From Lacinutrix sp. 5H-3-7-4 (GTDB taxonomy: Bacteria; Bacteroidota; Bacteroidia; Flavobacteriales; Flavobacteriaceae): a DNA stretch of 64,000 nucleotides. The notes under the pieces were generated by a model. It was not told the DNA's origin and ran no database searches. It was given only the letters and a program-made list of their open reading frames with translations. Of the stretch, positions 11,708-22,538 are shown in pieces. The translations under genes were made by a program, and so were the position numbers. Each line of letters starts with the position of its first letter. Within the stretch, counting starts at the first letter, position 1. Where the stretch lies: the NCBI RefSeq assembly GCF_000211855.2, contig NC_015638.1, positions 2,825,001-2,889,000 of the forward strand, read 5' to 3'.

Positions 11708-12655
11708 TTATACTCTTTCTAAAATATAGCTGTTAAAGTAGTTTTTAGAATCGCTAATTTTAGAAATTTGCTTCAGTTTAGTATTATTTAAAAAAGAATT
11801 TAATATCTCATCGTTATATTTTCTTGAAATTTCAGTAAGAATTTTTTCTCCTTTTTGAAACTTAAAAATAATATTATCACCATTAAAGGTTACTTCTTGA
11901 TCTTCTTTACTTACTAAATAGCTTTTTGCAATTCCTGTTTCTTCGTTGTATTCTGGGCTATGATCAAAGTTTTCAATTTCAAAATCTGCTTCTAGCTCAT
12001 TATTAATTCTGTTTAATAAATTAAGATTAAAAGCTTTGGTAACACCTTGACTGTCATTATATGCAGGTAAAACAACATCTTTAGGTTTTATAGTATCTAA
12101 ACCCATAATGACCTTATCGCCTACTTGTAAAGCATTGCTTAATTTTATTAAAAAATCTTGAGCTTCATGATCTTGTAAATTGCCAAGATTTGAGCCTAAA
12201 AACATTATTACCTTTGGTGTTGTATTAGTTTTAATATCGTTTAAAACACCAAAATAATTACCTTGAATAGTTTCTATATTTAATTTTGAAAACTCTTTGT
12301 GTATAGATTGTTCTAAATCGTCTAAAGCGTTTTGAGAAATGTCTATTGGTAAGTATTTAAAGTTATAATCTTCGTCAAGTAAAACTTTTAAAAAGGCTTT
12401 TGTTTTTTTACCGTCACCAGCTCCAAGCTCTATTAAATCGAATGGCTGATCTTTATTAATTTCTAATTTAGAAATTATGTTTTTTGATTTTGTGCTAAAT
12501 ATTTCAAATTCTGCTCGTGTTAAATAATACTCTGGTAAATGCATTATTTTCACAAAAAGGGCATCGCCAATGGCGTCGTAAAAATATTTTGAAGGTAAAG
12601 TTTTTGGCGAATTTTTCAATCCGTTTTCTATATCTAATCTAAATTGTGATTTCAT
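11708..12655 (-). CDS. egtD: L-histidine N-alpha-methyltransferase EgtD
   Basis: A 315-residue SAM-dependent methyltransferase that converts L-histidine to hercynine, the first step of ergothioneine synthesis. Family marks are the substrate-side EYYLTRAE at residues 42-49, the SAM-binding LIELGAGDGKKT near 74-85, and FLGSNLGNL. Length matches mycobacterial EgtD (about 320). It lies one base downstream of egtB and directly abuts the racemase-like gene, so all three are one transcript. No signal peptide; cytoplasmic. Confidence 0.93.
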   Translation of the reverse strand: MKSQFRLDIENGLKNSPKTLPSKYFYDAIGDALFVKIMHLPEYYLTRAEFEIFSTKSKNIISKLEINKDQPFDLIELGAGDGKKTKAFLKVLLDEDYNFKYLPIDISQNALDDLEQSIHKEFSKLNIETIQGNYFGVLNDIKTNTTPKVIMFLGSNLGNLQDHEAQDFLIKLSNALQVGDKVIMGLDTIKPKDVVLPAYNDSQGVTKAFNLNLLNRINNELEADFEIENFDHSPEYNEETGIAKSYLVSKEDQEVTFNGDNIIFKFQKGEKILTEISRKYNDEILNSFLNNTKLKQISKISDSKNYFNSYILERV

Positions 12656-12656
12656 T

Positions 12657-13811
12657 TTATTTGGCTAGTCGTATTCCTGTAAATTGCCATTGTGTTTCTG
12701 GCGAAAAAAAGTTTCTATAAGTATATCTACTATGGTTTGGTGAAGTTGCAACACTACAACCACGTAATACCATTGTGTTAATCATGAATTTGCCATTATA
12801 TTCTCCAACAGCTCCTGGTTCTTGTTTGTAATTTGGATATGGTAAATATGCAGAGTTTGTCCATTCCCAAGTGTTTCCCCAATTTAATTTTGAAGCAGCA
12901 ATTTCCCATTCAAATTCTGTTGGCAAACGTTTATTAACAAAGTTTGCATAGGCATTGGCTTCGTAATATGATAAATGTGTTACTGGCGCTTTAAGATTTA
13001 TTTTTTTTAATCCAGCTAGTGTGTAGACAAACCATTCGTTATCTATACTATACCAGTATAATGGTGCTTTTAAATTATTATTATTAATCCATGCCCAACC
13101 ATCGTCTAACCAATATTTTGGGCTATCATAGCCTTTTGAGGTTATAAAATTTATATAATCTTCGTTTGTTACTAATTTATTTGAAATTGTATAGGGTTCT
13201 AAAAAAACACGATGTTTACATGTTTCATTATCATAACAAAATCCATTACTATCATGACCAATGGTGTAGATACCTTCTTCTATTTTTATAAACTCTTGCT
13301 TTTGTTCTTCTACTATATTGTTTGCAAAAGCTTCTTTGTATAATTTTGGATTTATTGGGTTTTTAGATAATGTATATTTTATATCTGTTATTAATAATTC
13401 TTGATGTTGTTGTTCGTGGTTGATACCTAAAACTAGCAGATTAGTAATATCGCTATCATTTGGAAAATACTTTAATAGCAATGTAATATGCTTATCTACA
13501 TAAACTCTATATTTATAAATTGTTTCTACGCTTGGTCTTGTAATTAAACCGCGTTCACCTCTATTAATTCGCTTACCTAAGCTATTGTAATAGCTGTTAA
13601 ATAAAAAACCGTATTCTTCATCAAAAACTTTATAATCTTTAAAATAAGGTTTTAAAATCATTTCTTCAAAAAACCAAGTTGTGTGTGCCAAATGCCATTT
13701 TGGTGGGCTTGCAAAAGCTACAGATTGTGGTGTATAATCTTCAATCTCTAAAGGTTCACAAAGTGTTTTTGTATACTGTCTTGTAGTGTTATATTTTACA
13801 AGTATATTCAT
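12657..13811 (-). CDS. egtB: ergothioneine biosynthesis sulfoxide synthase EgtB
   Basis: A 384-residue non-haem iron enzyme joining hercynine to cysteine or gamma-glutamylcysteine as a sulfoxide. The N-terminal DinB_2-like domain carries KWHLAHTTWFFE (His 40/43) and NHEQQHQE (His 132/136), which fit the three-His iron site. The C-terminal formylglycine-enzyme-type domain has LPTEFEWEIAA and the terminal YRNFFSP and WQFTGIRLA typical of EgtB. A start 13 codons upstream would overlap the DUF1622 gene, so I choose the ATG at 13811, two bases after that gene's stop. Whether the thiol donor is cysteine or a glutamyl peptide is not readable. No egtA, egtC or egtE homologue lies in this window. Confidence 0.93.
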   Translation of the reverse strand: MNILVKYNTTRQYTKTLCEPLEIEDYTPQSVAFASPPKWHLAHTTWFFEEMILKPYFKDYKVFDEEYGFLFNSYYNSLGKRINRGERGLITRPSVETIYKYRVYVDKHITLLLKYFPNDSDITNLLVLGINHEQQHQELLITDIKYTLSKNPINPKLYKEAFANNIVEEQKQEFIKIEEGIYTIGHDSNGFCYDNETCKHRVFLEPYTISNKLVTNEDYINFITSKGYDSPKYWLDDGWAWINNNNLKAPLYWYSIDNEWFVYTLAGLKKINLKAPVTHLSYYEANAYANFVNKRLPTEFEWEIAASKLNWGNTWEWTNSAYLPYPNYKQEPGAVGEYNGKFMINTMVLRGCSVATSPNHSRYTYRNFFSPETQWQFTGIRLAK

Positions 13812-13813
13812 TT

Positions 13814-14164
13814 TTACTTTTGTAGTTGGTTGCTGGATTTGTTTTGCCAAGGAAATTTTCCTTCAATTTCTACTTGTATTGATAGGCTTAAAACGGTTCT
13901 AATTAATACTATTAATCCAAGTATTAGTGTTGATTTTAATGTTGGTTCTGTTATTACTGTTGCTACAATATCTGCAGCAATTAAAATTTCTAATCCTAAG
14001 AGAATAAACTTACCCAGATTTTTACGTAACTCTATATAACAATGCGCTCTTTTTTTTAAAGAAGATATTGTATAATTAATTAAAGAATATATTAAACCTA
14101 TTAATATTATAGCAATGCCTATAGCTTCTATTATTCTTGCAATTATTTCAATATAATGTTTCAT
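13814..14164 (-). CDS. DUF1622 family membrane protein
   Basis: A 116-residue inner-membrane protein with three hydrophobic segments: near residues 8-30, after a cytoplasmic loop (KKRAHCYIELRKNLGK) at about 50-70, and at about 78-95. LGLEILIAADIVATVI is the DUF1622 hallmark. Function unknown; the family is small and widespread. It sits 23 bases after the flavodoxin-like gene and two bases before egtB, so it is tightly embedded in the egt operon, which suggests shared expression but not necessarily shared function. Confidence 0.75.
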   Translation of the reverse strand: MKHYIEIIARIIEAIGIAIILIGLIYSLINYTISSLKKRAHCYIELRKNLGKFILLGLEILIAADIVATVITEPTLKSTLILGLIVLIRTVLSLSIQVEIEGKFPWQNKSSNQLQK

Positions 14165-14996: not shown

Positions 14997-16037
14997 TTAT
15001 AATGTTGCTAATCTACTATTGTCTAAATAACCTGAATACATATCTCTAAAATATACTTTTTTTTCTATGGCTTTAATTACTGGAGTACAAAAATCTGCAT
15101 CATACATATCTCCTGTAACATTTAAACCACCAGGACTAAATACATTTATCTCCATTAATTTATCTCCAACAATATCAATACCTACTAAAAACATACCATC
15201 TTGCACTAATTTTGGTTTTACAATTTCTGCTAGTTTTTTTATTTTTTCTGTCATTTTTACTGTTTCAGGTCTTCCACCAGCATGAATATTACTTCTTATA
15301 TCTTTTGAGTTATTTACGCGTTGCATCATTGCATATTTACCATCGACTTCTAGTGGTTCTCCATTCATTAAAAACAACCTTGTATCGCCTTTACTTGCTT
15401 CTGTTAAATATTCTTGTGCAATTACATAGCCATCTCTAGCTATAGCATCTATGGTTTGATTTAAGTTGTGTTCATTTTTTTTATCCATCATAAACACATT
15501 TGTACCACCAGAACCTTGTAAGGGTTTTAAAATCATTTTTTGTTTTTGTGTTTTAAAGAATGCTTTAATCTCGCCATGGTCTCTAGAAATTATTGTTTTT
15601 GGTCTTAAAATTTCTGGAAAGTGCTGGAAATACATTTTGTTAACTGCTCCTGCTAAACTTGCTGGGTGATTTAAAACTATTACGCCATTACGCATTGCTA
15701 TTTCTCCAAATATAAATGCTGCATTTTGTGCCCAATCGCGTTCATTAATCTCATCGGCTGGATTGTTTCTTAAAAATAAAACGTCTAAATCTTGAGAGGT
15801 AATACGGGTAAATTCTTCTTTTTGAACTGCTTTAAAGTAAGTTTCCTGAGAATTAAAGTTTTTATCTTTAATTGTTTTACAACGCACAGATAAATGACCT
15901 TTTGATGCATAAGACAATTCACCTACTCCAATAAAATAAACATCGTGACCACGTTTATAAGCAGCGTATCCTAATCCTGGTGTAGTATAGAACGGTTTTT
16001 CTGTATTATGATCATTAATTATAAAAGCAAGTTTCAT
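14997..16037 (-). CDS. ATP-grasp ligase, glutathione-synthetase-like (paralogue B)
   Basis: A 346-residue ATP-grasp enzyme with the layout of bacterial glutathione synthetase GshB: an N-terminal domain (MKLAFIINDHNTE), the glycine-rich ATP loop ILKPLQGSGGTNVF near residue 170, GDTRLFLMNGEP near 225, and the Mg-binding end MEINVFSPGGLNVT near 305. GshB joins gamma-glutamylcysteine and glycine. No gshA is nearby, and a paralogue with the same core lies at 20006-21073, so the substrates may differ from those of GshB. It lies between the QEGLA gene (100 bases) and the flavodoxin-like gene (83 bases), all on the same strand. Confidence 0.8.
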   Translation of the reverse strand: MKLAFIINDHNTEKPFYTTPGLGYAAYKRGHDVYFIGVGELSYASKGHLSVRCKTIKDKNFNSQETYFKAVQKEEFTRITSQDLDVLFLRNNPADEINERDWAQNAAFIFGEIAMRNGVIVLNHPASLAGAVNKMYFQHFPEILRPKTIISRDHGEIKAFFKTQKQKMILKPLQGSGGTNVFMMDKKNEHNLNQTIDAIARDGYVIAQEYLTEASKGDTRLFLMNGEPLEVDGKYAMMQRVNNSKDIRSNIHAGGRPETVKMTEKIKKLAEIVKPKLVQDGMFLVGIDIVGDKLMEINVFSPGGLNVTGDMYDADFCTPVIKAIEKKVYFRDMYSGYLDNSRLATL

Positions 16038-16137
16038 GTATTTTAGTTTTAATTATCTCTAAAATACCATATACTTTTAAAAATGGTTAGTGCTTTAACA
16101 ATGTGTTAGGACTCATTTAAGAATAAAATAAGATTAG

Positions 16138-17979
16138 TTATTTAACCAAATCTATTATAGCAATACCTTCACGCAATTTTTTTAACCTCTTTTTTACACT
16201 TTTTCTTTCTAATAATCGTGGTAATTCTGGTTTTAAAAGTACGTTTCTATCTAATAATTCTTCTATTAAATTAATGTGATTTGTATTAAACTTTCCTGTA
16301 TAGAGCGTTTCTAGGTTTCCGCCAGATTTTAAATATTTTAATAAATCTATAATTCCTGCTAAGTATACTGCGTCTTTTGTTAAACCACCACCACGATATA
16401 CTCGCATAGTTATGTAATATGATATACGATCTGAGAAATTATATCTTTTCTTTAAAAGTTTAAAAGTTTCTATAAAGTCTGACCCATTAACCATAGCATT
16501 TACAGCAATAACACGACCTGCTAATAATCGTAATCTATTTACGGTTAATCCTCCAACAAGATATTCTGCAAGTACAGCTAAACCTTCTTGAAGCTGATCG
16601 TAACCTTCAAAACCTTCATACATTTGTTTTAAAGGCTGTCTTTTACCGTTACAATAGGTTAAAATATGCGTAGCAATCTCGTGTTGTATTAAAGCATCAC
16701 ATCTATTAGCATCTAACGAAATTTGATCGTTTATTAATAGTTTTGTTTTAGAAACCATTATGCCCGCAACATCATTTCTAATTTCTAATGATAAATTAAG
16801 GTTTGGAAATTTAGAATTATAATAGTCTAATTCTTCTTGTGCATATTTTGCAAACTCATTACAGTTATATCTTTTCTCGCTTTTAAGTTCTTCTCTTTCA
16901 GGATATGCTTTAAGTATTTTTTTTGCTTCTTTTAAAACACTTTTTTTAATTACACCATATAAACTTTCTCCAACAAATCTAAAATTTTTAGTCCCACGTT
17001 CTTCTAGCATTGTTAACTGCTTTTCAATTTCTAAACGCTTACCTCTTAATATAAAAGCAATGGTTGGATCTTCAATTTTATCCATTGGTATATTATAAAG
17101 CTTTCGCTTTTCTAATTCTGGATCTAAAGCTATTAGTCTGTACTTAAAATTAGGTGGTTTTCTGTATTTTTTCTTTTTAAATACTTCCCACTCTTCATTA
17201 CTGTTAACTGGTGTTGTACGTAATAAAAAGGACATGCCTGAACTAATTTCGGCTAACTCACTATCAGACTGTATTGTTATATTATCTATATGTGTTTTAC
17301 CTAACATAAGATAGTTTTTAAAATCGTCTGTTGTTTGAATTCTTATAAACTCGAAAACTGCTTTTTTTATGGTTTCGGAAAAAACGGTATAGTATTCTCT
17401 AAAAAATAATGAGTACAGCTCGTTTGTCTCGTCGTTTTTATACAATGTTGGTGTTGAAATACCAAAAACTAATGTTCCTGTTTTTTTAGAACTTTCTATA
17501 TTTATTATGGGTTGTAAATGTACTGGCTGTCTTTTATCTGTATTAGATATTTTTGCTGAAACATTTGGGTAGATTTGATTAAGCTCGTTAAATCCCATTT
17601 TTAATGCATTTGCTGTTGCTGGAGCTTTATCTTCTGGACATGCTATATTAAATGTTGTGCTATTATTATCTTGATTTGGCCAACATTCTATTATTAAAAA
17701 ACTATTAAATTTTTTAGATCCTGCTTCTCTTACTTTTTCGATTATTGTACTTATATCTATAGACTCATCTATTAATAAATACGATGCTTGCGTTTTTATA
17801 AGCCTAGAAAAATAGACATCAAGTTTTTTAAATCTATAAACACATATGTAAGGTAGTAATTTGTCTATATGTAATAAACCATTGTTTGGCAACTTAAGGT
17901 TTATGGCTTTATTGGCTTCAATATCACTAAAAATACTATCAAGTTTTGTAGCATCTATAGTATCTTCTAATTTTATCAT
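16138..17979 (-). CDS. QEGLA motif protein (DUF1704), predicted zinc metallopeptidase
   Basis: A 613-residue protein of the 'flavohemoglobin expression-modulating QEGLA motif' family (DUF1704). The C-terminal domain has HEIATH at residues 433-438 and QEGLA at 464-468, giving an HExxxH site with a downstream Glu as a likely third metal ligand, followed by YRGGGLTKDAVY. DUF1704 is also the catalytic domain of the eukaryotic tubulin carboxypeptidase MATCAP, so a carboxypeptidase-type activity is a fair inference. The first 300 residues are an N-terminal domain I cannot name. Its start abuts the stop of the N-formylglutamate amidohydrolase-like gene. No signal peptide; the substrate is unknown. 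Confidence 0.85.
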   Translation of the reverse strand: MIKLEDTIDATKLDSIFSDIEANKAINLKLPNNGLLHIDKLLPYICVYRFKKLDVYFSRLIKTQASYLLIDESIDISTIIEKVREAGSKKFNSFLIIECWPNQDNNSTTFNIACPEDKAPATANALKMGFNELNQIYPNVSAKISNTDKRQPVHLQPIINIESSKKTGTLVFGISTPTLYKNDETNELYSLFFREYYTVFSETIKKAVFEFIRIQTTDDFKNYLMLGKTHIDNITIQSDSELAEISSGMSFLLRTTPVNSNEEWEVFKKKKYRKPPNFKYRLIALDPELEKRKLYNIPMDKIEDPTIAFILRGKRLEIEKQLTMLEERGTKNFRFVGESLYGVIKKSVLKEAKKILKAYPEREELKSEKRYNCNEFAKYAQEELDYYNSKFPNLNLSLEIRNDVAGIMVSKTKLLINDQISLDANRCDALIQHEIATHILTYCNGKRQPLKQMYEGFEGYDQLQEGLAVLAEYLVGGLTVNRLRLLAGRVIAVNAMVNGSDFIETFKLLKKRYNFSDRISYYITMRVYRGGGLTKDAVYLAGIIDLLKYLKSGGNLETLYTGKFNTNHINLIEELLDRNVLLKPELPRLLERKSVKKRLKKLREGIAIIDLVK

Positions 17980-18810
17980 TTATTTTGAAAATGTTTTGTA
18001 GAAAATTTCAGCGTTAATTTTAATTTTTAATTGCAATTGTTTCTCTACGGCTTTTACCACTTCTGGAAACATAATATAGTTATATTCATCACAATAAATT
18101 TTAGCTATTTCTGTTGCTAATACAAGTGTATTGCTGAAATTTTGTGTAATATACTTTAAAAAATAACCGTTACCTCTAAAGGTATCGTTAATTTTTGAAG
18201 TGTTTTTTATATTGTTTGGAAGTTGTATTTGCGATAAGCTTTTACTCCAATTTTCTATATGTTTTTTAAAACGTAGGTTATCTACATTATCTATTCCTAA
18301 ATTCCATGTTGGCACTTCTCTATCCCATCGTTTCCAATTATAGCTATGCATATCGTAAACAACGCAGGTGCTAAACTCTTTTTCTATTTTAGTAATTAAC
18401 GCATGTACAACTTTATAAAAATTATGGTGTTTATTAAGGGATTTTTCTATTTGTGATATTGGTAATGGTGTTTTCCATAATTGTTTTCCCCAAGCGTCTT
18501 TATAAATAGCAGATTCAGGATCACGATTTAAATCGTATTCAAAACGAGAATCCATACCAGCTATAATTATAGGTTGGTCACCCAACATGTTTTTTGTTTC
18601 TGGGTCTTCTTCATACCAACGTTCATATTCTGTATGCAAACAATTATTCCATAATTCTTTTCTAAACTGATGGCCATCGTGAACTGCAGCGCAAACATAA
18701 GGCACATAACTTTCAATTTTTAAAGTGAAAGAATAATCAATCGATACTGCACTAAAAGTTTCTTTAGCTTCTATTTTATCTATGATTTCGTTTACCGACA
18801 GTTTTTGCAT
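17980..18810 (-). CDS. N-formylglutamate amidohydrolase family protein
   Basis: A 276-residue protein of the HutG-type N-formylglutamate deformylase family, zinc-dependent hydrolases that release formate from N-formylglutamate. Visible are DGHQFR near residue 45, the conserved GMDSRFEYDLNRD near 85 and VVYDMHSYNWKR near 150, which hold likely metal-binding His, Asp and Arg residues. In histidine degradation this enzyme sits with hutH, hutU and hutI; none is here. Instead it is wedged between the TerB-like gene (eight bases) and the QEGLA gene (no gap), so it more likely cleaves a related amide made or used by the neighbouring ligases. Confidence 0.8.
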   Translation of the reverse strand: MQKLSVNEIIDKIEAKETFSAVSIDYSFTLKIESYVPYVCAAVHDGHQFRKELWNNCLHTEYERWYEEDPETKNMLGDQPIIIAGMDSRFEYDLNRDPESAIYKDAWGKQLWKTPLPISQIEKSLNKHHNFYKVVHALITKIEKEFSTCVVYDMHSYNWKRWDREVPTWNLGIDNVDNLRFKKHIENWSKSLSQIQLPNNIKNTSKINDTFRGNGYFLKYITQNFSNTLVLATEIAKIYCDEYNYIMFPEVVKAVEKQLQLKIKINAEIFYKTFSK

Positions 18811-18818
18811 TTAGAATG

Positions 18819-19154
18819 TTATTTTTTTAAAATTTTACGCAAATACATAAAGGTGGTTTCTTCCATTTCATCTGCTTCACCATCTGCATAGAGCATAAGT
18901 TTAATATCTGAGAATAACTCAGAAAAATCATCTTTAAAGTAATCGTGTGTTTTTACACTTTCTATTATTTTTTGAAGGCACTGATAGTCGTTATCATTAT
19001 CAAACTCCTCATGTACATTAGCAAAGGTTTCCCTATCGACTTTAGACAATATAAATTTTTTTTCGTCGCTGGTTTCATGTAAATCGGAATTTGCTATATA
19101 TAATAATATATAAGCAACGAGTTCTTTTTTACTCCATTTACTAGGTTTATCCAT
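18819..19154 (-). CDS. small TerB-like acidic helical protein
   Basis: A 111-residue all-helical, strongly acidic protein. The pattern KKELVAYILLYIANSDLHETSDEKKFI, broken by helices, and a second half ending LMLYADGEADEMEETTFMYL repeat the acidic metal-loop style of the TerB/DjlA-N fold (AD-x-E turns near residues 30 and 90). TerB-like domains bind metal or act as adaptors; no activity is known here. The ATG at 19154 follows the sulfurtransferase stop by two bases; an upstream start inside that gene is unlikely. It is part of the five-gene packed run. Confidence 0.55.
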   Translation of the reverse strand: MDKPSKWSKKELVAYILLYIANSDLHETSDEKKFILSKVDRETFANVHEEFDNDNDYQCLQKIIESVKTHDYFKDDFSELFSDIKLMLYADGEADEMEETTFMYLRKILKK

Positions 19155-19156
19155 AA

Positions 19157-19987
19157 TTATGCTATTGTTAAAGTTCCATATTCTGTCCACGAACCATCGT
19201 AAACACTATTTTTGTAACCTACAATGGTTGCTGCAAAAGCAAGCACTGCCGCAGTTATACCACTACCACAAGTAAATACTAAATGTTGATGTGGTTTTGC
19301 TATACCTTTAAATATTTGTTTTAAATCTTCTTTTGTTTTAAAAGTATTATTATCTAATACCTGGTTAAAAGGTAAGTTTGAAGATGATGGAATTGTACCG
19401 CTTCTTAAACCTTTTCTAGGTTCTGCTACTGTACAATTAAAACGATCGCTAGAACGTGCGTCTATTATTTTAAAATTTTCGTCTTTAGAAATTGCTTCTA
19501 ATGAATCAAAATACACAACACTTTCTGGATTGTAGTTTGCTTTAAAGTTTCCTTTTCTAAAATTATATTTTTTATTTTTTTCTTCGGTTTTAAAATTCAT
19601 TTTTTTCCATTGTGGAAATCCACCATTTAGAACAGCTACATTTTTAAAACCAAATGTTTTTAATAACCACCAAGCTCTAGCACTAGAATATACACCGTGA
19701 TAATCATAAACAACTATAACCGAGTCTGAATTTACACCTAAATCCTGTAACGCAGCTTCAAATTGTAAAGCAGAAGGAATAGTATTTGGAAAAGGTGCAT
19801 TAACGTTACTAAACTGCTTTTTAATATTAAAAAACTGAGTTTTTGGTATTTGTGAATGTGATAGTTGTGAAACGTCTCCAATAACTTTAGAGATAGTAGC
19901 ATCGAAAACAAATAAATTTTCGGCTTGCAAATGTTTATTTAACCACTCTGCAGATACTAGATTTTCTATTTTAGTAATTTTAGACAT
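19157..19987 (-). CDS. rhodanese-type sulfurtransferase (thiosulfate/3-mercaptopyruvate)
   Basis: A 276-residue two-domain rhodanese. The N-terminal inactive domain runs to about residue 140; the C-terminal domain ends with the active loop HLVFTCGSGITAAV. CGSGIT(A) after the catalytic Cys is the 3-mercaptopyruvate sulfurtransferase (SseA) type rather than CRKGVT of thiosulfate rhodaneses. It would move sulfane sulfur from 3-mercaptopyruvate to a thiol acceptor or cyanide. It is the second gene of the packed run, 18 bases after an ATP-grasp gene, which puts sulfur transfer next to a thiol- or peptide-forming ligase. No signal peptide. Confidence 0.85.
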   Translation of the reverse strand: MSKITKIENLVSAEWLNKHLQAENLFVFDATISKVIGDVSQLSHSQIPKTQFFNIKKQFSNVNAPFPNTIPSALQFEAALQDLGVNSDSVIVVYDYHGVYSSARAWWLLKTFGFKNVAVLNGGFPQWKKMNFKTEEKNKKYNFRKGNFKANYNPESVVYFDSLEAISKDENFKIIDARSSDRFNCTVAEPRKGLRSGTIPSSSNLPFNQVLDNNTFKTKEDLKQIFKGIAKPHQHLVFTCGSGITAAVLAFAATIVGYKNSVYDGSWTEYGTLTIA

Positions 19988-20005
19988 TTATATTTTATTA
20001 ATTTA

Positions 20006-21073
20006 TCAGGCTTCTTCTACAGCTTTTCTTAAACGCGATAAACGGTTAAAAGCCTGCACATTATCCATAACCTTACTCTCAAGAAAATCTACAACTTTCT
20101 CTTCTATTTTATATTTATTTTTATAAACCTTATTAATATAGGTTATGCCGCCAGGTGACATAACATTAACTTCTACTAATTTACCTCCAATAACATCTAA
20201 ACCAACAAAATATAAGCCATCTTTAACTAGCTTTGGTCCTATTTGCTTGCACAATGCTTTTTCTGTTTTTGTTAACGAATGCTTTTGTACACTTCCGCCA
20301 GCCGACACATTAGATCTATGATCTTCTGTACCTGGAACACGTTTCATGGCACCAACAGGTTCTCCATTAAGCATCAATATTCTTACATCACCTTGGTCTG
20401 CGCCTTCTATATAATCCTGAAGTATAACATAATTTGAAGAGCCATCACTTTTGTTTATGTAAAAGTCTAAAAGTGAATTTATATTACTCATGGCAGATTT
20501 TTCAATTAAAATAACTCCAGAACCTCCAAAACCGTTTAAAGGTTTTAGTATCATTTTATCTGCTTTAGATTCTTTTATTTGTTGTACCAAATATTTCTTG
20601 TTTTTAGAAACATGTGTGTTTGGTATTATATTACTGTGTGCATCGCCAAAAGCTGCTGTATAAAGTTTATTGTTTGCTTCTCGCATACCTTGCAAAGAGT
20701 TTACTATAAAAACATCATCTTTAACAGAGTCTAAGAAATTAAGCATTATTGGATCTAATGGCGGATTTGCTCTAAAAAATATAGCATCAAATCCTGCTAA
20801 TGGTAACATTTCTTCTCTTAATACTGCTTTATTATAAAAGCCTTTTAAGCTCGACGGTACTTTATCCATGCGTCCAACAACAGTACAAAAAGCATTTGTA
20901 ACACTATTTCTAATAGTTAAGTTTGCTGGAGTACACAAGGCAACACCGTGACCTCGTTTTACACATTCTTTAATTAATGCTAAGCTTGTATCGTTTTCTG
21001 GATCAATTTCTTCCCAAGGATACATTAAAAAGCAAACATTCATAAATTTATAGTTTTGGTTATTAGTTTCCAT
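20006..21073 (-). CDS. ATP-grasp ligase, glutathione-synthetase-like (paralogue A)
   Basis: A 355-residue ATP-grasp protein. It has the core motifs of the second ligase at 14997: ILKPLNGFGGSGVI near residue 175, QDYIEGADQGDVRILMLNGE near 220-240, HRSNVSAGG near 258 and VEVNVMSPGGITYI near 310. The two are clear paralogues but differ throughout the N-terminal domain, as expected for different acceptor substrates. GshB is the nearest known family. First gene of the packed five-gene run (sulfurtransferase, TerB-like, N-formylglutamate amidohydrolase family, QEGLA). An internal ATG ten codons on is an alternative start. Upstream, a strong hairpin isolates it from the symporter transcript. Confidence 0.8.
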   Translation of the reverse strand: METNNQNYKFMNVCFLMYPWEEIDPENDTSLALIKECVKRGHGVALCTPANLTIRNSVTNAFCTVVGRMDKVPSSLKGFYNKAVLREEMLPLAGFDAIFFRANPPLDPIMLNFLDSVKDDVFIVNSLQGMREANNKLYTAAFGDAHSNIIPNTHVSKNKKYLVQQIKESKADKMILKPLNGFGGSGVILIEKSAMSNINSLLDFYINKSDGSSNYVILQDYIEGADQGDVRILMLNGEPVGAMKRVPGTEDHRSNVSAGGSVQKHSLTKTEKALCKQIGPKLVKDGLYFVGLDVIGGKLVEVNVMSPGGITYINKVYKNKYKIEEKVVDFLESKVMDNVQAFNRLSRLRKAVEEA

Positions 21074-21212: not shown

Positions 21213-22538
21213 TTATTTTACTGCATCGTAATTATCATCCCATTCTTTAGCCTTAGGATTGTCATGTAATTTACCTAAAGACTTAGCAACAAGCATAGAT
21301 ACTGTAGCATCTCCAGTAACATTTACAACAGTTCTACACATATCCAATGGTCTGTCTACAGCGAATATTAAAGCCAAACCAATTGGTAATAATTCTGCAG
21401 GAAAACCAATAGACTCTAAAACAATTACTAACATTACCATACCGGCACTAGGTACAGCAGCACTACCAATAGAAGCCAATAAAGCAGTTGCTATAATAAC
21501 TATTTGATTTGTAAATGTTAAGCCTTCTGGCCAAATTACTTGCATAATAAAAACCGCAGCAATACCTTGGTATAAGCTTGTTCCATCCATATTTACAGTA
21601 GCTCCAACTGGTAAAACAAAACCAGCAACTTCTTTATCTACACCTAAATGCTCTTCTACACGCTCCATAGTTACAGGTAATGTTGCAGCACTAGAACTTG
21701 TAGAAAACGCCAATAATTGCGCTGGAGATAATTTATTTAAAAACCATAATGGTGATTTTTTTGTGTATACTTTTACTAAAATTAAGTAAAAACCAATCAT
21801 TAAAGCTAAACCAAATACTACACACAAAGCATAGCTTAAAAGTTTTAAAAGAATCTCTGTATCATCAAAAGCTATAATAACATTTGCCATTAATGCAAAA
21901 ACTGCATACGGTGCAAAAAGCATGATTAAATCTACCATTTTCATAACTACTTCGTTTAAAGAGTCGAAGAAATCTACGAGTGGTTTTGCCTTTTTTTCTG
22001 AAATTAATAATAAACAAATTCCCACAAAAAGAGCAAAAAAGATAACCTGAAGCATTTTAGCTTCACCTAATGCGGTAAAAATATTACTAGGAAAAATATC
22101 TACTAATGCTTGTAAAGGTCCAGCATCGTTTTGAGCAGAAGCTTTCATAAGTTTATCTGAAACACCTGCATCATTTTCATATTTCATTTTTATTTTCTCA
22201 ATAGTATCCTGCGGCATTCCTGCTCCAGGTTTTATAGTATTTACAATAGTTAAACCTATAACAATAGCGACTACAGTTGTACCAACATATATTAGTATGG
22301 TACGCAAGCCCATTTTTTTTATTTTAGAAATGTCTTTTAAATCTGAAATTCCCTTTATTAACGATGCTAAAATTAAAGGTACTGCAATTAGCTTTAAAAG
22401 GTTAATAAAGATTTTTCCAAAAGGAGCAATCCAATCGGAAACAAAATGTCTTCCGCCATCAACAGAATTCATTATGAATCCAAAGATGATACCTAAAATC
22501 ATTCCGATTATTATTTTCCAATGTAATGCTAATTTCAT
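21213..22538 (-). CDS. dicarboxylate/amino acid:cation symporter (DAACS family)
   Basis: A 441-residue inner-membrane symporter of the GltP/DctA family, taking up glutamate/aspartate or C4-dicarboxylates with H+ or Na+. Signatures are the Ser-rich re-entrant loop STSSSAATLP near residue 282, the NMDGTSLYQG cation site near 318 and the second re-entrant loop SIGSAAVPSAGMV near 360. Eight or so hydrophobic segments and the length agree with the family. The substrate cannot be fixed from sequence. The gene is monocistronic, with aroC 103 bases upstream on the same strand and a strong terminator after it. Confidence 0.9.
   Translation of the reverse strand: MKLALHWKIIIGMILGIIFGFIMNSVDGGRHFVSDWIAPFGKIFINLLKLIAVPLILASLIKGISDLKDISKIKKMGLRTILIYVGTTVVAIVIGLTIVNTIKPGAGMPQDTIEKIKMKYENDAGVSDKLMKASAQNDAGPLQALVDIFPSNIFTALGEAKMLQVIFFALFVGICLLLISEKKAKPLVDFFDSLNEVVMKMVDLIMLFAPYAVFALMANVIIAFDDTEILLKLLSYALCVVFGLALMIGFYLILVKVYTKKSPLWFLNKLSPAQLLAFSTSSSAATLPVTMERVEEHLGVDKEVAGFVLPVGATVNMDGTSLYQGIAAVFIMQVIWPEGLTFTNQIVIIATALLASIGSAAVPSAGMVMLVIVLESIGFPAELLPIGLALIFAVDRPLDMCRTVVNVTGDATVSMLVAKSLGKLHDNPKAKEWDDNYDAVK

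Follow-up and report, generated by a model that had tools for sequence, protein, structure and literature searches.

N-formylglutamate amidohydrolases (FGases) and the AstE and AspA families cut the acyl group from N-acyl forms of glutamate or aspartate, GshB-type ligases couple a peptide carboxylate to an amino acid by an amide bond, and MATCAP is a carboxypeptidase. Relatives of these enzymes are encoded in a packed run of six genes on the minus strand of a 64,000-base stretch of Lacinutrix sp. 5H-3-7-4 (contig NC_015638.1, positions 2,825,001 to 2,889,000), which we refer to as the window. Among described systems, the MATCAP enzymes, or TMCPs, are presented as carboxypeptidases that both process the tails of tubulin and act as deglutamylases (PMC10499314), and the RimK/RimB glutamylation of a ribosomal protein is presented as the pairing of an ATP-grasp ligase with a dedicated peptidase (PMC12239564).

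The window MATCAP protein resembles human MATCAP/TMCP (KIAA0895L, KIAA0895) in its predicted fold (Z 24.6) and in its metal ligands, an HExxxH motif plus a glutamate, but it is bacterial, shares 20% identity with the human protein in the structural alignment, and carries an extra, apparently decayed FGase-like domain; its operon also encodes a ligase and an FGase. The ligases are homologous to E. coli GshB (1gsa) over most of their length, with the ATP-grasp residues aligned, but they fall below the GshB equivalog TIGR01380, lie in a genome with no gshA of the types searched, and are linked to peptidases. The FGase shares PF05013 and the fold of solved N-formylglutamate amidohydrolases (2q7s, Z 24.6; 2odf, Z 22.0), but is 14-17% identical to them and has a ligase and a peptidase as neighbours; in 25 of 100 loci an AspA-type enzyme takes its place. 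Compared with RimK/RimB as described in PMC12239564, the ligase is of the GshB branch and the peptidases (MATCAP, M14 clan) are unrelated. Finally, the stand-alone gammaproteobacterial "QEGLA" proteins share the PF08014 peptidase family but form a separate branch, with neither an FGase nor a strong same-strand ligase beside them. Listings from the openly licensed literature showed no account of a ligase-FGase-MATCAP operon; the paper by Iyer et al. 2009 on ATP-grasp amidoligases, which lies outside that scope, may have predicted it.

A ligase and two metallohydrolases inherited together

The original prediction had described six co-directional, closely packed genes, and indeed all six open reading frames are present on the minus strand at the coordinates it gave, with their families confirmed by Pfam and NCBIfam (Table 1). 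They are transcribed in the order ligase A, rhodanese, small protein, FGase, MATCAP and ligase B, separated by 18 bases, a 34-base overlap (using the longest open reading frame), 8, 0 and 100 bases. The six genes mix two things: a conserved core, formed by a GshB-like ligase, an FGase-like M14-clan enzyme and a MATCAP protein, and a set of bystanders.

To define the core, we collected 100 MATCAP loci, 20 from relatives and 80 from named genomes (the best 80 of 581 matches to the window MATCAP protein), and searched them in six frames with profiles for neighbours on the same strand within 4 kb of MATCAP (loci and genomes are designated by L and G numbers). A ligase lies beside MATCAP in 98 of the 100 loci, counting contig-end fragments, and an M14-clan partner in 88: 63 have an FGase and 25 an AspA-type enzyme, and none has both. 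Among the 59 named-genome loci with 4 kb on both sides, all 59 have the ligase, 37 an FGase, 16 an AspA-type enzyme and 6 neither. The genes are tightly packed, the median gap being 3 bases between FGase and MATCAP (57 pairs) and 5 bases between MATCAP and ligase (85 pairs), with start codons picked by length. By comparison, 8 of the 100 loci have the rhodanese near MATCAP and 6 have the small protein there. Co-occurrence is thus strong for the core three and does not extend to all six families, and the earlier proposal that the ligases and the two hydrolases form one unit is borne out by this linkage.

The core is also inherited together. MATCAP is present in 18 of 60 relatives, and those same 18 genomes carry an NF009110 ligase at or above 200 bits, G027 as a contig-end fragment; none of the other 42 reaches this score, the best match being 98 bits. 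Across 296 evenly sampled Bacteroidota genomes, a ligase of at least 396 bits occurs in 15 of the 16 genomes with MATCAP and in none of the 280 others (Fisher p 2.6e-24, kinship ignored), at a distance of 36 to 2156 bases from MATCAP in those 15; in two MATCAP-less genomes the ligase match is weaker, at 194 and 215 bits. Two ligases flank MATCAP in G393 and G408, as in the window. Additional tandem ligase matches lie 3' of MATCAP in L085, L095, L100, L113, L114 and L116, with three in L116. Judged by record names, the 80 loci span Bacteroidota, Balneolota, Calditrichota, Acidobacteriota, Planctomycetota, Gemmatimonadota, Poribacteria, Verrucomicrobiota, Kiritimatiellota, Campylobacterota, Myxococcota and Pseudomonadota, and the order FGase, MATCAP, ligase recurs on plasmids of Shinella, Mesorhizobium and Sinorhizobium meliloti, in the last on pSymB. 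A list of genes specific to clade 2 of Vibrio vulnificus includes VV2_1203 (COG3930) together with VV2_1204 (glutathione synthetase), and a second COG3930 gene, VV1_0515 (PMC3091676).

In several genomes FGase and MATCAP are joined in a single protein (L026, L036, L177, L178/L185, L179 and L180). A maoP/DUF413 gene (L179 5539-5898) lies directly upstream of the fusion in Vibrio sp. HDW18. We built a tree of 124 MATCAP domains by a quick method, with support values from the Shimodaira-Hasegawa-like approximate likelihood ratio test (SH-aLRT), a midpoint root and long branches flagged. It splits a module clade (106 rows) from a gammaproteobacterial stand-alone clade (18 rows) with support 100. 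The AspA-type partner maps to one change, comprising 25 rows with support 100. Since the AspA type arose once on this tree, FGase and AspA-type enzymes, which share a DLNR motif, fill the same place. A ligase above 150 bits is near MATCAP in 101 of the 106 module-clade rows; the other five are L074 and L094 (contig ends), L067 (a whole ligase on the opposite strand), L178 and L030. In L030 (8907-10058, genome G019), the MATCAP copy has no ligase or FGase near it and lies beside the same symporter as in the window. Its motifs are broken, reading HEIGVN and QAGLA where relatives have HEIGVH and QEGLA. Such a loss of metal ligands is what one would expect were the peptidase useless without its partners.

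A MATCAP match was found in 35 of 229 gammaproteobacterial genomes, and neighbourhoods were taken for 20 of these (among the rest, G060 is the genome of L119). Of the 20 stretches, 18 lack an FGase and, at E 1e-3, a same-strand ligase; L166 and L167 have weak ligase-profile matches (96 and 79 bits) on the other strand. These 18 stretches, L159-L176, are the stand-alone PF08014 clade. In the other two, L177 and L178, FGase and MATCAP are fused, and a ligase accompanies the fusion in L177 but not in L178.

Table 1 Features of the module and its surroundings (window coordinates)
Feature	Coordinates	Strand	Evidence	Remarks
GshB-like ATP-grasp ligase A	20006..21073	-	NF009110 455.9 bits; 1gsa match	Core module; second ligase of hybrid arrangement
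SseA/3-mercaptopyruvate-sulfurtransferase-type rhodanese	19157..19987	-	PF00581 85.0 bits	Passenger; resident of symporter site
Small acidic protein	18819..19190	-		Passenger; probable start near 19154 (111 aa)
FGase-type (N-formylglutamate amidohydrolase-like) M14-clan metallohydrolase	17980..18810	-	PF05013 45.9 bits	
MATCAP/QEGLA protein, 613 residues	16138..17979	-	PF08014 337.8 bits over residues 266-604	
N-terminal domain of MATCAP protein, residues 1-216	17332..17979	-		Apparently decayed FGase-like domain
MATCAP metallopeptidase domain, residues about 252-613	16138..17226	-	PF08014 and predicted fold	
HEIATH (HExxxH) zinc motif, residues 433-438	16666..16683	-		Third ligand E465 in QEG at 16585-16587
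GshB-like ATP-grasp ligase B	14997..16037	-	NF009110 427.7 bits; E. coli GshB E 8.8e-36	
Sodium:dicarboxylate-type symporter (SDF family)	21213..22538	-	PF00375	Neighbour and site marker, outside module
EgtB and EgtD pair	11708-13850			1.1 kb downstream of ligase B; FMN (flavin mononucleotide) reductase and DUF1622 in between

Predicted folds and metal sites of the core enzymes

The MATCAP protein scores far above the PF08014 cut-off of 27, placing it in the MATCAP/TMCP family. Its putative metal ligands H433, E434, H438 and E465 are identical in all 59 aligned long forms, and in the profile comparison they align to HEIGTH and EEG of human MATCAP. A model predicted from 59 sequences (predicted local distance difference test score, pLDDT, 92.7) matches human MATCAP 7z5g over 289 residues at 3.0 A, within residues 252-612, and the next best structure for this domain is the DUF885 protein 3iuk (Z 17.1). 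A single-sequence search of the PDB with the MATCAP protein gave no match, whereas the profile search did find human MATCAP. In the narrower QEGLA equivalog TIGR02421 (cut-off 338.65), the window protein scores 320.9 bits; among four other module members, L036 (351.3), L063 (345.5) and L119 (344.0) pass and L025 (310.5) falls below. These data point to a predicted carboxypeptidase of the MATCAP/TMCP family.

The FGase is the sole PF05013 match in the genome (cut-off 28.9). Its model (pLDDT 95.1) matches, beyond the two solved FGases cited above, M14 carboxypeptidases, AstE (1yw4, Z 11.1) and CCP5 (Z 10.4); a single-sequence search of the PDB gave nothing credible. H44, D93, N95, R96, D153, H155 and E234 are identical in 43 of 43 FGases, and H47 in 40 of 43. 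By profile, fold and conserved residues the enzyme belongs to PF05013, and several of these residues presumably bind metal. Comparison of profiles with hhalign gave no link to the AspA-type profile from either the FGase profile (E 0.078) or that of the MATCAP N-terminal domain (E 0.093), so we read the kinship of both with the AspA type solely from the M14 fold. The search for hut families covered 10 proteins at the locus and found none. FGase, GCS2 and an RLAN/RimK ATP-grasp ligase form a different cluster in G002 (L182 3894-7245), where the families were scanned; by coordinates only, neighbouring matches at one site also occur in G003, G004, G006, G009, G012, G019 and G026.

The MATCAP protein is extended by an N-terminal domain, whose residues 31-216 match the FGase 2q7s (Z 13.2, 173 residues, 3.1 A), the best listed structure for that part. 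Its profile matches the FGase profile (hhalign E 2.5e-6, probability 88.8), while 12 controls (AspA, GshB, two reversed and eight column-shuffled profiles) gave E 0.086 or worse; it also matches the MATCAP-domain profile with E 0.00027, over 19 columns where both profiles meet. In the fused FGase-MATCAP proteins the N-domain profile also matches the FGase part, with 36 to 48 bits. No Pfam family is common to two of the 46 members, and a sequence search of the PDB gave no meaningful match (best E 0.19). Because none of its histidines is well conserved (none reaches 90%; the best columns, at positions 37 and 222 of the window protein, stand at 36 and 35 of 46), we take this domain to be an FGase-like domain that has apparently decayed. 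This second FGase-like domain, the AspA-type substitute and the spread of the module over many phyla and rhizobial plasmids go beyond the original prediction.

Both ligases score above the NF009110 cut-off of 408, which defines the GshB-like subfamily PRK12458, and match GshB with E 1.3e-38 (A) and 8.8e-36 (B), most of the length being aligned. The D, E and N of the "GLDIIG..L.E.NV" stretch in ligase A align with 1gsa, and we assume that they serve in metal or ATP binding. Matches to RimK-type chains range from E 6e-5 to 3e-8. Against the cut-off of 299.05 for TIGR01380, ligases A and B score 233.9 and 200.8; against that of 272 for NF003573, ligase A lies above (281.3) and ligase B below (211.6). 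Ligase B is of the type that follows long-form MATCAP elsewhere. Genome-wide, neither of the two gshA types searched, PF04107 (GCS2) and PF04262, has a match in this genome, and PF04262 is absent from all 60 relatives, this genome included. From these profile searches, classical glutathione synthesis is an unlikely role for the module, in agreement with the original prediction.

Passengers at the symporter site

The rhodanese scores 210.4 bits on NF008557, below the cut-off of 250. The small protein has no Pfam or NCBIfam family at E 0.001, and a TerB match at E 0.12 in one of five homologues was not counted as evidence. A start at the ATG near 19154 turns its overlap with the rhodanese into a gap of about 2 bases and fits the relatives, which have 111, 111 and 109 aa in L023, L025 and L034 (123 aa in L031). 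Downstream, EgtB scores 515 bits on TIGR03440 (cut-off 360) and EgtD, at 286.2 bits, lies just below its cut-off of 290.9; going by these scores, the pair likely serves ergothioneine-type synthesis.

The rhodanese stays at its site without FGase, MATCAP or ligase there in four genomes of the genus (G011, G006, G001 and G004, the last with an AspA-type module elsewhere), and the small protein stays without the module in G011, G006 and G004. All 13 genomes of the genus have a symporter match at E 1e-150 (three at 63% identity), and 5 of these genomes have MATCAP; in 17 of the 100 loci the symporter lies upstream of MATCAP, no more than 6 kb away and on the same strand. Rarity near MATCAP and retention in module-less genomes thus rule out the rhodanese, the small protein and the symporter as module parts. 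EgtB and EgtD were rejected likewise, since none of the 100 loci has a same-strand EgtB up to 9 kb from MATCAP in the sequence covered, and since both genes are present in G011 without the module.

Sister genome G011 keeps the symporter, rhodanese, small protein, FMN reductase, EgtB and EgtD genes. On one side of the rhodanese-small-protein pair it has no ligase A and on the other no FGase, MATCAP or ligase B, with no remnant at E 0.05 in 15 kb. In this the missing genes behave like a cassette. DNA identity between the window and G011 is 96-98% in the outer flanks, 90-96% in the FMN reductase-EgtB-EgtD part, and 79.7% for the rhodanese and small-protein DNA (window 18819-20005 against L186 2781-3968). 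Because this stretch is so much more divergent than its flanks, the block may have been swapped as a whole through recombination, and gain and loss of the module are thus indistinguishable.

What the module may do

From the activities of their families, all three core enzymes would act on an amide ending in a free amino-acid carboxylate, one making it and two breaking it. We therefore favor, tentatively, a three-enzyme module that extends and trims a small peptide at its C-terminus. The GshB-like ligase would use ATP to join an amino acid to the carboxylate of a short, probably glutamate-containing peptide, and, as this genome has a second ligase, two residues may be attached in turn here. The FGase, or its AspA-type substitute, and MATCAP would each cut the C-terminal amide, freeing the amino acid, and the decayed FGase domain probably serves as a docking site for the working FGase or in substrate binding. 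One substrate would be common to all three enzymes, and we prefer a small peptide because two of the three belong to small-molecule families. The FGase-GCS2-RLAN/RimK cluster counts for this reading, as there too an FGase accompanies an ATP-grasp ligase.

Expression data from Photobacterium damselae RM-71 suggest when such a module may be needed. In the RNA sequencing data reported for 1% versus 3% NaCl, "Glutathione synthase GshB" A0J47_RS17020 is up 38.4-fold and "QEGLA" A0J47_RS17025 27.5-fold, among 1,808 genes changed in all (PMC10308900). From their adjacent tags and names, we infer that these two genes are the same module pair. In Photobacterium sp. DA100 (L180), the ligase and an FGase-MATCAP fusion are encoded in overlapping frames. 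The module would thus serve adaptation to changed salinity.

Several points weigh against the add-and-trim reading. Unless it is regulated, or its members act on different bonds, a ligase paired with two hydrolases would make a futile cycle, and the characterised MATCAP relatives are known to act on protein tails and not on small peptides. FGase-MATCAP fusions occur without an adjacent ligase in L178/L185 (a 12,996-base contig) and in L179 (Vibrio sp. HDW18, with 6 kb on each side), and G475 carries MATCAP without a strong ligase. Neither FGase nor an AspA-type enzyme was found in 12 of the 100 loci, 10 of them from named genomes, of which 4 have less than 4 kb on one side. Moreover, the named-genome loci are biased to the window subtype, because they were picked as best matches to the window protein. 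Finally, GCS2, a possible feeder of GshB, is present in 5 of the 18 MATCAP-bearing relatives.

The bolder alternative, prompted by the action of eukaryotic MATCAP and of M14-clan relatives on tubulin tails, is a protein C-terminal tagging cycle, in which the ligase would add an amino acid, such as glutamate or tyrosine, to a protein tail and MATCAP and the M14-clan enzyme would remove it, on the model of tubulin tyrosine ligase, MATCAP/TMCP and the CCP enzymes on tubulin. The MATCAP domain, with its close match to human MATCAP and all metal ligands in place, argues for such a cycle, as do the tubulin-tail processing and deglutamylation described for TMCPs (PMC10499314), the match of the FGase model to CCP5 "in complex with Glu-P-peptide 1" and the match of the ligases to RimK, the ribosomal protein S6 glutamate ligase. 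However, the ligases are far closer to GshB than to RimK-type chains, no conserved acceptor protein is found in the module, and many M14 enzymes match the FGase model as well as CCP5 does, dozens of chains showing a Z near 10 through the M14 fold. We thus consider a tagging cycle unlikely, although it keeps some weight. Somewhat less probable still is its fullest form, a bacterial counterpart of the tubulin-tail cycle with a reversible protein tag, a GshB-branch writer, MATCAP and M14-clan erasers, the decayed FGase domain as docking scaffold, and the module as a candidate bacterial source of eukaryotic MATCAP.

A salvage or catabolic unit, in which the hydrolases would break imported or damaged acyl-amino acids or peptides and the ligase would recycle the product, with no dedicated signal or tag, appears rather improbable. 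It would agree with the release of glutamate or aspartate from N-acyl forms by the FGase, AstE and AspA families, and with the dicarboxylate-type symporter upstream of some loci; yet the symporter is present throughout the genus whereas MATCAP is not, and the ATP-costly ligase is the most constant partner.

Very unlikely is the thiol pathway of the original prediction, in which a glutathione-like thiol is the product of the ligases and its sulfur comes from the sulfurtransferase. Both ligases do pass NF009110, annotated "glutathione synthetase", with ligase A also passing NF003573, EgtB and EgtD lie close downstream, and GCS2 is found in 13 of the 60 relatives, though not in this genome. On the other side stand the missing GCS2 here, the absence of PF04262 from the relatives, and the EgtB-EgtD pair, which has no same-strand EgtB counterpart near MATCAP in the 100 loci and is kept in G011 without the module. 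Because the rhodanese is rare near MATCAP and kept in module-less genomes of the genus, the sulfur step is without support. Chance adjacency of unrelated housekeeping genes, which does describe the rhodanese, small protein and symporter, is already excluded for the core by the ligase-MATCAP co-occurrence across the Bacteroidota sample, the fusions and the many phyla.

At present, annotation as "glutathione synthetase", "N-formylglutamate amidohydrolase" and "flavohemoglobin expression-modulating" scatters these genes over three separate pathways, and the published transcriptome, in the account it gives of the 38-fold induced ligase, treats it as a glutathione synthetase (PMC10308900). Seen as one module that recurs across many phyla and on rhizobial plasmids, they pose a single testable question, with a drop in salinity as a ready condition. 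If the module does tag proteins, it could show the origin of the eukaryotic tubulin-trimming enzyme.

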